Part shown: positions 30,017 to 36,032 of the stretch, piece after piece | Layout: every line of letters starts with the position of its first letter | Position numbering within the stretch: position 1 is the stretch's first letter | Assembly: GCA_029907545.1 (NCBI GenBank) | Contig: JARYLR010000005.1 | Coordinates: 1-64,000 of the forward strand | Origin: Candidatus Bathyarchaeota archaeon | Lineage (GTDB): Archaea > Thermoproteota > Bathyarchaeia > Bathyarchaeales > Bathycorpusculaceae | Direction: 5' to 3' | DNA: 64,000 bases | Made by a program: the position numbers and the translations under genes | Notes under the pieces: generated by a model | Told to the model about the DNA's origin: nothing | Database searches by the model: none | What the model saw: the letters and a program-made list of their open reading frames with translations, nothing else

Positions 30017-30241
30017 AGTGTGTCTGTGTAGTGTCTATAAATAGTGTGTATATGTTTTCTTCGCTATTACAAAACAGAAATTTCTTCTATATCATTTATG
30101 GGTAAATTTTATTAATTACTAATGGTGATATGTTTGATTCGGGAGAGTCTCGGGTTAGCATATTCTTTGACGGGGTTCATCCTATTTTTACCCGCGTGCT
30201 ATCTGCTCTTCCAAGATCGAATGAGTAAAGGAGAAAGGAGA

Positions 30242-33200
30242 ATGCATGAAGCAAACAGAAAAACAGTAGTAATATCCATCTTCATCAGCATACTATTAGC
30301 TTCAGCTGCTTTCGTCAAACCAAGCTTTTCGCAACAAACAACACTATACGTCAACCCACCGGAAACCAAAGTGAATGTTTGCTCCGAGTTCACCGTCGAG
30401 ATAAGAATTCGCGAAGTTGTAGACCTTTTCATGTGGGATCTCAGAGTATTCTTTGATCCCTCGTTAATGCAGTATGTAAGCGCCACTGAAGGGCCACTCC
30501 TTAGAATGCATGGGCCAACTGTATTCCTTACAGATCCTCAGCCGGACAACGTGCATATGGGCTGTTCGCTTTTGATTCCTCCAGGAGTAAGCGGAGACGG
30601 AATTCTAGCATACATCACGTTTCACTGTATCAGCCCAGGAATAAGCCAACTGCATTTCTCTAATACGATGCTCTTTAATTCCAACCAGCTCCCGATCACC
30701 CACACTACTATTGACGGGACAGTTACCCAGCTACCTCAAATGTATTGGAAAGAGAACTTTACCGATTATGCTCCCAGCGGCATGCCCGACTTCGATCAGA
30801 AACAGGATGCATGGCAGAACCCGTGGCCGCCAAACCCTGGCTCATGGAGCTACTGCGGACCTACCGCTGTAGCTAACAGTCTTTGGTGGTATGACTCTAA
30901 ATTCGAACCTAACGCCGTGCCTCCTCCCACGATAAGCGATGGATTTCCGCTAGTTACATCGTACTCAACGATGCCGCCTTTCTGGGATGACCACGACCCG
31001 CTGAACGCCCCACCCTTGATACAAGACCTAGCGTGGTACATGGATACTGACGGCCAGAGAACCGGTCTTCCACATTGCGGCACAGACGTTTTTGACATGC
31101 ACGCAGGTATAGCCCACTATTTGTCAGACAAAGGTGTAAATCCAGTTGGAGATGCTAGCGGTGACGGCTCAGTCGATGGCGCGGACATCAACATAGTAAT
31201 GGCGGCAATGGGCTCCACGCCTGGAGCGCCTAACTGGGATCTGCGGGCAGATGTTGCTCATGACAACGTGGTTAACATGAAAGATCTTACTCTTGTTGGG
31301 GCGCATGTTAGCGAAAAATGGGGAAAATTCTATGAGAAAACCGTAAGGAAACCTGACTTCGAGTACATTGCCCATCAAATCAAAATGTGCGAGGATGCCG
31401 TGCTTCTTCTGGGATTCTGGCAAGAAGTCAGCCAAGGCTACTACATCAGAATCGGGGGGCACTTCGTGACAGCTCACGGCGTAAACGAAACAACCCTGCT
31501 AATCGGAGTTAGCGACCCATTCCAGGATAATGCTGAGCAAGGAGGAATAGGACGAGTGATTCCCGCGCCACCGCATGGTCATCCTCCGTTGCCTCCTGAT
31601 ACAGTGCACAATGATGCTGCGGTAGTCTCTCATGACATCTACAGAATCGCTCCATCCCCCAGCCCAGGCGGCATATGGGGATTGCCAAATTACAACTGCA
31701 CTCCAGCCATATTGGTTAACGCATATGGGCAAAATACGCCTCGTAATTTTACGGAGATTCAGGAACCGTGGATGGGGTTGCCGGTTTTCGTGGAAATCGA
31801 GTATGCTGTAGTTGTCTCATGCCACGGACCAATGGTTGCGGTTGGATCTGAGGATGGCAATGTTTACGCCTTTGACTACATGGGTAATCTTGTGTGGGCT
31901 TTCTCTACAGGCGCTCCCGTAGTCTCAGTTGCGATGTCTGAACGAGGCGAATATGTTGTTGCCGGAAGCCTCAACAACGGCATTTTCGTCTTTGACGGTT
32001 CTACTGGAGGCTTGCTGTGGAACCAACCGATACCTATTTCTGAAAGCTATGATGGGAGCTGGCGAGGCTCTGACTCAAAAACAGTAGGAATCTCTGCTGA
32101 CGGGTCATACATCGTTGCCGCCACGGCTACCGGCATATATCTATACGACAACATTGGTGCTCTCATATGGCAGTACATGGGGCTAATCACTCCTCAAGAA
32201 ACCTTTGTTGAAATATCTCCTGACGGCAAATGCATTGCATGCTGCAGCTACTTCAACAACGAAATCACTTCTTCTGGCACATGCGCGATGGAACGCCCGG
32301 ATGGCAACCAAGCGACGGCACACCTCTATGGAGCAAAATAATAGCTGGAGGAACATTCAACTGGCTGGCAATAGACGGATGTGGAAGGCACATTGCTTTC
32401 ACCGGCGACTCTGACAGCGACCTCCTCATGGAAGTCTATCTGTTTAACCGTTCAGGAACACTTGTATGGAGCTGGGAATTCACGAAATTTGGCTATGTGC
32501 GCGTGGACATGCCATGGGATGGAAGAAGCGTAGTTGCAGTTAACGATGATCCAACAAACATGGCTGGCACAGATCTAGTGTATTTCAGTGACATAACCGA
32601 CTGGGTTCTTGGATGGCAGGCAACCGATGGCGTACCACTATGGTTCTTCACCCCCTTGCCGGTCAACCCTGCAGATGATTTCTATAGCGTCGCTATATCG
32701 CCAGACGGGAAAGTCATAGCCACCGGACCTGGACCGAGTAACGTGTACTTGCTGTCAAATGCTGGTGGGACTTTGCAAACGCTTGCTGACGGCATCGTCA
32801 ATGCTCTTGATTTGACTTTTACTGGGGAATATGGCGTGGTAGGTGACCGCGTAGAACCCGCGTTATCAGGTACAGTCTACTTTTTCAGCAAGACGCGAAA
32901 CACTATATTATGGAGCTTTGCCACACAGGGGAAAATCAACTCCGTAGCAATACAGAAGAAGTATCCTTGTCTCGAGCCCTTCCCCTACCACGATGTGGAC
33001 GTAAGCAACGTAATACGTTACACAACTTCGGACGGCAAGGCTAAACACTACGTTTGCCAAGGCTACAATGCCAACGCAATCAATGTCACCCTATCTAACC
33101 GCGGAAACTACCCAGAGACAGTTGAAATCACCTTATACGCATACTCGTCTTCAAACAACACTCTCCGCGTCTGCGGTAACACAACCGTAATCATCCAGCC

Positions 33201-33534
33201 TAGAACAGCACCAGTCGTAAGCATTGACTGGCTCTCAACAAGCGTCCCCTACTACGGAAACTACACACTGTGCGCCACCATCGGTCCGGTTCAAGACGAA
33301 AACAATCTAGTGGACAACGAGTTTATTGACTCCGGACTCGTAGTCACCGGTGTTGGCGACATTAACGGCGACAGGAAATGCGACTTAAAAGATGTTCTCG
33401 CCGTGGCTTTAGTGTATGGCTCGTCTACCGGTCAACCGAAATACCATCCGGACCTCGATATCGTCTGCGACTACAAGATAGATCTAAAAGACTACATGGT
33501 AACCGCTCTGAATTATGGGAAAAATTACACTTAG
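30242..33534 (+). pseudogene. Secreted cohesin / C39-like peptidase / dockerin / beta-propeller protein, split by one frameshift
   Basis: Two reading frames (30242-32341 and roughly 32269-33534) make one protein of about 1097 residues if a single base is restored near 32269. Order: signal peptide (residues 1-31, ending P-S-F-S-Q); a cohesin-like domain (33-163, with V-D-L-F-M-W-D-L-R-V-F-F-D-P); a papain/C39-like peptidase with Cys205 in SYCGPTAVANS, His in G-G-H-F-V-T-A-H-G-V-N (407/412) and Asp in V-S-D-P-F (425). A dockerin (302-361) is inserted inside the peptidase. A propeller (from 520), a CARDB-like domain and a terminal dockerin (33355-33534) follow. The start at 30242 has AGGAG nine bases upstream. 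It may be functional if the shift is a sequencing error or programmed. Confidence 0.82.
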
Positions 33535-33536
33535 CT

Positions 33537-33569
33537 TCCCCCCTCTTTTTCTTTTTTTAACTTTTTTCC
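33537..33569 (+). terminator. T-rich terminator after the secreted protein gene
   Basis: Immediately after the TAG, the plus strand has a pyrimidine run with three T tracts (TTTTTC, TTTTTTT and TTTTTT). This is typical of archaeal intrinsic termination by U-rich runs. The gap to the convergent pxpBC stop is only 22 bases, so the tract runs into that gene's 3' end. Confidence 0.6.
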
Positions 33570-35242
33570 TTAAACATTCGGTTCAAAGTTGCAAGTATCT
33601 TGAGATAGTTATTGACTTTATCGCGTGCTTGCTTCATTGTGATGCTGCAAAATTCTACCGTGCTGTTCGGTCTTGCCTGCCCAAGAGCGTTAACATCGGC
33701 GCTTATGATTGCCGCAATTTTCGGATACCCACCTGTTGTCTGGGCATCACGCATTATTATAATAGGTGTTCCATTTCCAGGCACCTGAACTGCTCCTGGT
33801 AAAAGGGCGTCAGAGACGATTTCAGCTTTTTCCTTGTGCTCTATTGCTGGGCCCTCAAGACGGTAGCCCATTCGGTCTGCTTCCGAGGTCACTTTGTAAG
33901 AATTTGTTAGAAAGGTTTGCATTCCGTTTTCTGTGAACATGTCTGCTTGTGGCCCGAGGACTACGTGCACTTTGACATTGCTGGTGAACCGTGGGACTAG
34001 TTCTCTTGGCGTGTAGAGCTCTTTTTCCATAGGATCTGTTTCTGCCGTGGCTACTATGTCTCCGGCTTCTAGTGGCCTGCCGTTTATTCCTCCGAATCCT
34101 CCTCGTATGTAGGTGGATCTGCTTCCAAGCAGATGGGGCACAGCTATTCCGCCTCTTACTGCGAGGTATGCTCGGCACCCGCTTTCCATTTTTCCAAAGG
34201 CTATGACATCGTTTTTATGCACACTAAGTGTCTGCCACATCTGAGTGTTATGCCCATTGATCTTCGGAGACAGCTCTCCTCCGGTGACTGCTATCTGTGT
34301 CGGCGCTAAAACCCGCAGTTCCGGACCAATTAGTGTTATTTCAAGGCATGCTTCATTCGGCTGATTTCCAACAAGCAGGTTTGCCGCTGTAAGCGAAAAA
34401 GTGTCCATTGCGCCTGAGACGGGAACTCCGTATCTAAGGAAGCCATGTCTCCCAAGGTCTTGAACGGTTGTGAGGAACCCAGGCTTGAGCACCCTGAAAA
34501 CTTTCCTTCCGATAGGCTGCGCTTTTGGCGCTTGCTTTGTCTTAGTTTTGCTTAATGCTTCAAACTCTTGTTCAGTGATGATCTTGAATTTCACCGTGTC
34601 TCCCGCCTTCAGAAGGCTAGGTGGCTGTTGCTCGGGATCGAATAGGCTGATTGGGGTTCTGCCGATGATTCTCCATCCGCCTGGAGCTTCGCGTGGGTAT
34701 ATGCCTGTCTGCTTTTCTGCTATGCCCACTGAGCCTTCTGGCACTTTCAGCCTTGGTGTCGCAAGCCGTGGTGTAGCGATCTTTTCTGCGACTTCGCCGA
34801 GGTAAGGGAAGCCTGCAACGAAACCTATCATGTAAACTCTATATTCCCGCTGTGAATGCAGTTCTATGACGCGGTCTTCCGTTAAGCCGTGGTATTCTGC
34901 TACGTCGCCTATGTCGGGTCCGTACTCTCCTCCATAGGCTACTGGGATGACGATTCCTTTGCCTTTCACGTTTTTTATCTGTTCTTCGTGTTTTGTTTTG
35001 ATTTCTTCTGCTTGAAATACGAGTTTCTCGTAATTTGTCTTCAGTGGATCAAATCGGACAAGCAAGGATCGATAGGTCGGAACAATCTCTTCAACTCCTT
35101 GTATCCGCGCTTTCTCAAGCACATGGCTTAGTGCAATAACCTTTCTGTTTATTTCAGGACTTATTTTGTCGCCTAGTTCGACGACTAGTCCCACGTCGCC
35201 GAAAGGAAGATATCGAATAGGCTGACTTTGTTCTTGCTTCAT
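33557..35242 (-). CDS. pxpBC: 5-oxoprolinase subunits B and C fused (PxpBC)
   Basis: This 561-residue protein joins a KipI/PxpB domain (residues 1-230, with R-Y-L-P-F-G-D-V-G-L, GFVAGFPYLG, PGGWRIIGRTP) to a KipA/PxpC domain (about 245-561, with F-L-T-T-V-Q-D-L-G-R-H-G and V-P-V-S-G-A-M-D). The PxpABC complex hydrolyses 5-oxoproline (pyroglutamate) to glutamate using ATP, removing a metabolic damage product. In most genomes pxpB and pxpC are separate genes. PxpA lies 16 bases upstream on the same strand, so the full complex is encoded here. Confidence 0.93.
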   Translation of the reverse strand: MKQEQSQPIRYLPFGDVGLVVELGDKISPEINRKVIALSHVLEKARIQGVEEIVPTYRSLLVRFDPLKTNYEKLVFQAEEIKTKHEEQIKNVKGKGIVIPVAYGGEYGPDIGDVAEYHGLTEDRVIELHSQREYRVYMIGFVAGFPYLGEVAEKIATPRLATPRLKVPEGSVGIAEKQTGIYPREAPGGWRIIGRTPISLFDPEQQPPSLLKAGDTVKFKIITEQEFEALSKTKTKQAPKAQPIGRKVFRVLKPGFLTTVQDLGRHGFLRYGVPVSGAMDTFSLTAANLLVGNQPNEACLEITLIGPELRVLAPTQIAVTGGELSPKINGHNTQMWQTLSVHKNDVIAFGKMESGCRAYLAVRGGIAVPHLLGSRSTYIRGGFGGINGRPLEAGDIVATAETDPMEKELYTPRELVPRFTSNVKVHVVLGPQADMFTENGMQTFLTNSYKVTSEADRMGYRLEGPAIEHKEKAEIVSDALLPGAVQVPGNGTPIIIMRDAQTTGGYPKIAAIISADVNALGQARPNSTVEFCSITMKQARDKVNNYLKILATLNRMFKEKS

Positions 35243-35258
35243 GGTTCAGTCCAGAAAC

Positions 35259-36032
35259 TCAGATGAAAGTGCCTACCGCTTTAATCTCGATCTTCGCCTT
35301 CGCCAGCCCTTTTCTCAGCGTTTCCACAAGCTTCACTGCAGATGGTGTGTCACCGTGTATGCAGATTGAGTGGATTTTACCTAGCTTTATGGTTTTGTTG
35401 TCTATTGTTTCAACAACTCCTTCAGTGACTGCTTTAACTGTTCTTTCCAAAATTTTTTTGGAATCGTGGAAAATTGCGTTTGGTTTTGCTCTTGAAACCA
35501 AGCTTTGGTCAGGGTTGTAGGCTCTGTCTGCGAAGAATTCCGCAGCAACACGCATTTTTCTGTCTGCCGCGGTCTTGGCTAACACGGAGTTTGGGGGTGC
35601 AAAGATGATGAGGTTAGGATCTAGAGACTTTACGGCGTTGACTATTGCTTTCGCCGTTTGCTCGTCTTCTGCTGCCTTATTGTATAGGGCTCCGTGAGGT
35701 TTCACGTGTTGAAGAGCCAAGCCCTCTGTTTTTGCGAATCCGGCGAGAGCGCCAGTTTGGTAAACCACGCTATTCTCGATTTCCTCAGACGTTAACTTCA
35801 TTTCTCTTCTTCCAAACCCCGCGAGATCAGGATACCCTGGGTGTGCGCCAACTGCAACCCTGTGCTTTTTAGCCAGCTTGATGGTTTGTGCCATGACTGT
35901 AGGGTCGCTTGCGTGGAAGCCACATGCGATGTTTGCCGAGGTTATGTGCCGCATGAGTTGGGCGTCGTTCCCGATTGTGTAGGCTCCGAAGCTTTCGCCT
36001 AAATCACTGTTTATGTCGACTCTATACTTCAA
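35259..36032 (-). CDS. pxpA: 5-oxoprolinase subunit A (LamB/YcsF family)
   Basis: This 257-residue subunit of the ATP-dependent 5-oxoprolinase has the N-terminal signature D-I-N-S-D-L-G-E-S-F-G. Then come ITSANIACGFHASDP, VGAHPGYPDLAGFGRREM, H-V-K-P-H-G-A-L-Y-N, F-F-A-D-R-A-Y and the closing S-I-C-I-H-G-D-T. Length and order are normal. It lies between pxpBC and the dehydrogenase gene with 15-16 base gaps, so one transcript is likely. Confidence 0.95.
   Translation of the reverse strand: MKYRVDINSDLGESFGAYTIGNDAQLMRHITSANIACGFHASDPTVMAQTIKLAKKHRVAVGAHPGYPDLAGFGRREMKLTSEEIENSVVYQTGALAGFAKTEGLALQHVKPHGALYNKAAEDEQTAKAIVNAVKSLDPNLIIFAPPNSVLAKTAADRKMRVAAEFFADRAYNPDQSLVSRAKPNAIFHDSKKILERTVKAVTEGVVETIDNKTIKLGKIHSICIHGDTPSAVKLVETLRKGLAKAKIEIKAVGTFI

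Follow-up and report, generated by a model that had tools for sequence, protein, structure and literature searches.

The gene at positions 30242-33534 of the window (the whole 64,000-nucleotide stretch of DNA that was analysed) most plausibly encodes a secreted cysteine peptidase of the papain/C39-like type, acting as one subunit of a surface cohesin-dockerin system, with a C-terminal dockerin as its plug and a second dockerin, inserted in the catalytic fold, put to another use. Judged from the domain assignments, the product would bind calcium, pair with cohesins, cleave protein and be located at the cell surface. The gene contains, in order, a cohesin, a peptidase domain interrupted by a dockerin, a beta-propeller, a CARDB-like domain and a final dockerin, and its reading frame changes once, within the propeller. 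The features are as follows, with the evidence for each in brackets.

30242..32341, + strand: ORF A, with the cohesin, the peptidase with its inserted dockerin and the start of the propeller, cut short by the frameshift (start of the mechanical ORF, 30122)
30242..30334, + strand: probable signal peptide, MHEANRKTVVISIFISILLASAAFVKPSFSQ (read directly from the sequence)
30332..30730, + strand: cohesin domain (PF00963, AlphaFold2, Foldseek)
30737..31819, + strand: papain/C39-like peptidase domain, interrupted by the inserted dockerin (15-member alignment A1; AlphaFold2; Foldseek weak)
30854..30856, + strand: codon of the predicted catalytic Cys245, CGP motif (Cys in 36 of 43 aligned members, Asp in 7 of 43)
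31145..31315, + strand: inserted dockerin, between the predicted catalytic Cys and His (PF00404; the genome's own dockerin model)
31460..31462, + strand: codon of the predicted catalytic His447, GGHFVT (43 of 43 aligned members)
31514..31516, + strand: codon of the predicted catalytic Asp465, SDP (Asp in 41 of 43 aligned members, Asn in 2 of 43)
31820..32970, + strand: beta-propeller, with the frameshift inside it (propeller family matches in ORF A; tblastn homology to the G034 protein on both sides of the shift)
32230..33534, + strand: ORF B, with the remaining propeller, the CARDB-like domain and the C-terminal dockerin (ORF list)
32266..32266, + strand: one-base frameshift inside the propeller, position approximate, from the frame of 30242 to that of 32230 (tblastn with the G034 protein)
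32977..33342, + strand: CARDB-like domain (AlphaFold2; closest PDB match 3idu)
33352..33522, + strand: C-terminal dockerin with the symmetric DLKD/DLKD signature of the genome (genome-dockerin model; recognition-residue comparison)

The cohesin, propeller and CARDB assignments of the original prediction all held, and the domain matches lie far above what chance would give. The cohesin scored 33.3 bits against PF00963 in ORF A (curated Pfam cut-off, 24.1) and 37.6 bits in the whole-genome profile search, and its AlphaFold2 model, an all-beta sandwich of moderate confidence (pLDDT about 55-72), matched several solved cohesins in Foldseek at probability 1.00. The propeller was recognised by Pfam family matches and the CARDB by its fold: the model of the CARDB and C-terminal dockerin had a mean pLDDT of 88.9, and its closest PDB match was 3idu, the archaeal CARDB of PF1109. 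A cellulosome scaffoldin has several cohesins on its chain and usually a carbohydrate-binding module; with one cohesin and no carbohydrate module found by Pfam, the window protein does not have this composition.

Two unlike dockerins

The inserted dockerin scored 24.3 bits against PF00404 (Pfam cut-off, 22.9) and 47.8 bits with a model built from the other dockerins of the genome (best of 1000 shuffles, 11.6), and in Foldseek the peptidase-domain model matched a dockerin over 55 columns at 2.0 Å. At high stringency, 18 of 257 genomes of the class had the peptidase family, which was also found beyond the class, in Chloroflexota, Zixibacteria, Thermoplasmata and others. A dockerin is inserted at one and the same site between the predicted catalytic Cys and His in 12 of 17 Bathyarchaeal members and absent from the other 5. 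The C39-like copies from Chloroflexota, Zixibacteria and Thermoplasmata belong to the same family at about 30-50% identity but differ in this respect, since none of the 51 domain copies outside Bathyarchaeota has the dockerin or any insert longer than 19 residues at that site. A tree gave no firm placement of the window's insert; its similarity to other inserted dockerins (0.37, versus 0.29 to the dockerins of its own genome) weakly favours one insertion followed by losses.

The N-terminal cohesin region is common to the window gene and the insert-free members from genomes G034, G035 and G006, which are ∼40% identical to the window over the cohesin and the N-terminus of the peptidase; Pfam gives no cohesin call in G034 despite the shared region. 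Other members that are complete at the N-terminus have a different repeat there or nothing recognisable. In several (L065:6842-10036, L071:5951-9214, L069:1017-4013 and others) the place of the cohesin is taken by an unnamed repeat, present several times, with the pattern CDWFxVxDPxxxxPxPCSWWEIxxxxxxEFHVDxxxxxFHID.

The C-terminal dockerin reached only 12.7 bits with Pfam, below the cut-off, and 75.3 bits with a model built solely from the genome's other dockerins (best of 1000 shuffles, 11.6). It carries DLKD/DLKD, as do most dockerins of the genome, and has Val at position 3 of loop 2, whereas the recognition residues of the window's inserted dockerin, GA/MK, are asymmetric. Loss of the calcium-binding Asp residues from both dockerins would have spoken against the domain assignment; in each, loop 1 is complete and loop 2 is without its position-3 ligand.

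In well-studied type I dockerins, recognition residues lie on each F-hand, and their duplication gives two binding modes (PMC4728124). Dockerins in general had genome-specific signatures in our comparison (similarity 0.507 within versus 0.294 between genomes; 0 of 2000 label shuffles). The recognition signature differs from one Bathyarchaeal genome to the next, examples being DLKD, GIDD, DIYD, VKD and NVLD (loci L024-L034 and L171-L250). Within the peptidase family, residues 10-11 were identical in both loops in 12 of the 15 C-terminal dockerins, and in each of the 7 genomes compared the recognition segments of these were more similar to dockerins of their own genome (0.42-0.71) than to those of other genomes (0.25-0.35). 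None of the 11 inserted dockerins had symmetric recognition residues, these positions were not conserved among the inserted dockerins themselves, and own-genome similarity (0.21-0.29) exceeded other-genome similarity (0.22-0.24) by a few hundredths at most; two rows of the comparison duplicate the window and G073. Calcium ligands of loop 1 were intact in 11 of 11 inserts, and position 3 of loop 2 was lost in 10 of 11.

Thus, the two dockerins of the original prediction are real in that sequence models find both and the Asp-rich loops are present, but they are not equivalent, the first lying inside the peptidase fold. Because symmetry and the own-genome match are found in the C-terminal dockerins and neither is found in the inserted ones, the C-terminal dockerin probably serves as the plug, fitting a shared cohesin that evolves along with it, although gene conversion among paralogues could also produce similarity between dockerins of one genome. 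The insert, which has no symmetric, genome-specific recognition residues, probably does not serve the same scaffold as a second plug; it is probably a repurposed calcium-binding element, released from the plug role.

An alternative is that both dockerins are working plugs and the insert has a different cohesin partner, in which case the protein, with its own cohesin, would cross-link or polymerise as in the original prediction. Nothing in the results points specifically to polymerisation of the protein with itself. Recognition of the insert by Pfam and its dockerin-like fold are consistent with this explanation, a protease with two dockerins exists in C. thermocellum (PMC12484212), and internal dockerins of R. 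flavefaciens are as active as C-terminal ones (PMC5301203). Moreover, non-canonical asymmetric dockerins are known that have one binding mode only (PMC4728124), and binding of the insert to some cohesin is therefore still conceivable. Nevertheless, we consider two working plugs unlikely, given recognition positions that are neither symmetric, nor conserved among the inserts, nor matched to the host genome, the widespread loss of the loop-2 ligand, and the absence of the insert from five Bathyarchaeal members of which three have the cohesin.

The peptidase domain and the reading frame

The catalytic residues had been named correctly and are conserved in the family alignment: Cys205, His407 and Asp425, counted from 30242, are Cys245, His447 and Asp465 of the ORF that opens at 30122. 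The peptidase domain, including the inserted dockerin, was modelled by AlphaFold2 with pLDDT mostly 90-98, and the conserved Cys-His-Asp triad stands in papain order. Matches of the model to papain-like enzymes in Foldseek were weak, and scores against Peptidase_C39_2 (PF13529) were 12.7-15.4 bits, below the curated cut-off of 24. The product is probably a secreted enzyme that cuts protein.

Among 81 homologous domains, the nucleophile Cys of CGP has given way to Asp in 12 and to Ser in none (L104, L109, L111, L115, L117, L128, L130, L143, L145, L149, L151 and L162); in two cases the Asp copy lies next to an intact CGP copy on one protein. This replacement, the Pfam C39 scores below cut-off and the presence of phytochelatin synthase, at low probability, among the papain-like Foldseek matches would also fit another papain-fold enzyme (transpeptidase-like or phytochelatin synthase-like) or a binding domain, with the docking role unchanged. 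However, the window gene has the full Cys-His-Asp set, as do, with the exception of G063 (Asn for Asp), the aligned Bathyarchaeal members covering this set, and the CGP motif resembles that of C39-like enzymes, so that we regard an activity other than proteolysis as doubtful.

The original prediction placed all of these domains on one polypeptide, merging two frames without mention of the change between them. No single reading frame crosses 30242-33534 in the ORF list of the window, which instead gives a pair of open + strand frames that overlap, 30242-32341 and 32230-33534. In G034 and G035 the counterpart gene is one intact frame of 1040-1048 aa without the inserted dockerin, and the window gene is one base out of register with it. 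When the intact 1040-aa G034 protein was aligned to the window gene by tblastn, residues up to 627 fell in the first frame and those from 628 onward in the second, with zero residues lost; the switch is at nucleotide 2025 of the gene, or ∼32266 of the window. A relative of the same genus, G001, is 84% identical over the N-terminus, and its contig ends after residue 229.

Programmed -1 frameshifting was rejected, as the sequence, read directly, has no slippery heptamer at the site. Separate translation of ORF B appears unlikely because, on reading, no Shine-Dalgarno-like sequence precedes 32230; a GGAG-rich stretch lies just before the ATG of the gene. In the G006 relative (L076:7140-10280) there is an in-frame TGA (HMRN*) only a few codons away from where the window gene changes frame, and the frame is otherwise open as far as the C-terminal dockerin. 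In a test for selection around this stop, both difference rates go up downstream, and the propeller is variable in any case.

Either an error of assembly or a recent mutation may account for the broken frame seen here. If the gene were a decaying pseudogene, the half that carries the plug would not be made, and the cohesin-peptidase half, if made, would be released undocked. The one-base shift and the G006 stop a few codons downstream of it are in keeping with decay, and taken together they mean that the gene may be decaying in some lineages. For the window gene itself we think decay quite improbable, as ∼1100 codons are otherwise undisrupted, neither the catalytic residues nor the calcium ligands of loop 1 have been lost, the G034 and G035 genes are whole, and MAG assemblies do contain one-base errors.

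A docking system and its relation to known ones

The window comes from a Bathyarchaeota MAG of 1.46 Mb (97% complete), and the nearest relatives are MAGs that carry the name Bathyarchaeota. Models built from this genome gave 25 matches for dockerins, amounting to about 22 full modules, and 14 for cohesin-like modules, with E-values that are inflated because the models contain many of the matched sequences; the general Pfam models alone gave 17 dockerins and 6 cohesins. The genome search suggested with the original prediction thus gave a positive result: outside the window protein there are about 20 further dockerins and a dozen further cohesin-like modules. A gene cluster on contig C54 (L024:744-10806) encodes proteins with 3, 2, 1 and 3 cohesin-like modules together with PKD-dockerin and cohesin-CARDB-dockerin proteins, and the last multi-cohesin protein has a hydrophobic C-terminal segment resembling a transmembrane or membrane anchor; from this arrangement, C54:744-10806 is a candidate archaeal scaffoldin locus. 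No glycoside hydrolase was found in the Pfam-scanned part of the genome's cohesin and dockerin proteins, and the repertoire is that of an archaeal noncellulosomal cohesin-dockerin system. Of 121 related genomes, 68 have cohesins, indicating that the docking system is common in the group. The scaffold that had been proposed is thus upheld in part: the further cohesin and dockerin proteins make a docking or scaffold role likely, but the inserted dockerin is probably not a second plug.

Nearer to the gene, carboxyltransferase-domain (CT_A_B/CT_C_D) and LamB/YcsF genes resembling a 5-oxoprolinase set lie downstream and convergent (window 33557-36032), and an ABC transporter and MoaE lie upstream.

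In the mechanism that we propose, the signal peptide would export the peptidase, and the C-terminal dockerin would plug it into cohesins of the same cell, for example those of the putatively cell-bound multi-cohesin proteins of C54. The N-terminal cohesin would offer one more socket to another dockerin protein, allowing the peptidase to act as an adaptor that brings this protein beside it. The propeller and CARDB would be spacers or binding domains. The insert, an EF-hand-like pair homologous to dockerins, would bind calcium through loop 1 and, as part of the catalytic domain, stabilise or tune it. There is a slim chance that the insert is instead a docking- or calcium-gated switch, with calcium or a cohesin, perhaps the protein's own, altering the active site; if so, the protease would work only when assembled or only outside the cell.

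Parts of this arrangement have precedents. ANME archaea are reported to have many dockerins and multi-cohesin proteins with up to five cohesins, and some of their proteins combine several cohesins with a dockerin; their common cargo, unlike that proposed here, is ABC-transporter binding proteins, and a peptidase with a dockerin inside its catalytic fold is not described in the section consulted (Chadwick et al. 2022, PMC9012536). R. flavefaciens RflaF_05439 is likewise a papain-like cysteine peptidase whose C-terminal dockerin attaches to a surface cohesin, but it belongs to a bacterial cellulosome, is of the NlpC/P60 rather than C39-like type, carries an X-dockerin, and has neither a cohesin nor an inserted dockerin (PMC3573020). 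The S8 protease of C. thermocellum has two dockerins and a proposed cell-surface anchoring role; it differs in being a serine protease with tandem dockerins outside the catalytic domain and no cohesin (PMC12484212). Matches of our profile to the serine protease entries 8x39/8x3a lie in its dockerin part. Acetivibrio cellulolyticus scaffoldins with extra modules join a cohesin and a peptidase in one protein, but in a bacterial cellulosome and with an S8 subtilisin-like peptidase (PMC3413522).

Archaeal cohesins and dockerins, bacterial cysteine and serine proteases with dockerins, and a cohesin and peptidase on one chain are therefore already known. With archaeal systems (PMC9012536) and bacterial docked peptidases (PMC3573020, PMC12484212) on record, the archaeal protease setting is less unusual than had been claimed; the unusual point is the dockerin inside the peptidase fold. 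A literature search, thin in subscription journals, turned up neither an account of a dockerin within a catalytic fold nor a paper on a cohesin-dockerin system in Bathyarchaeia. The surface-docking system is larger than this one protein, is common to many of these archaea and seems barely described in the group. Since 12 of 17 members have the insert and the others lack it, the family offers a natural with/without pair for studying the role of a docking module that is not acting as a plug. Bathyarchaeia abound in anoxic sediment, and detrital protein is thought to be part of what they live on. If true, a docking system specific to the species and including a peptidase would be a concrete way for Bathyarchaeia to hold degradative enzymes at their surface.
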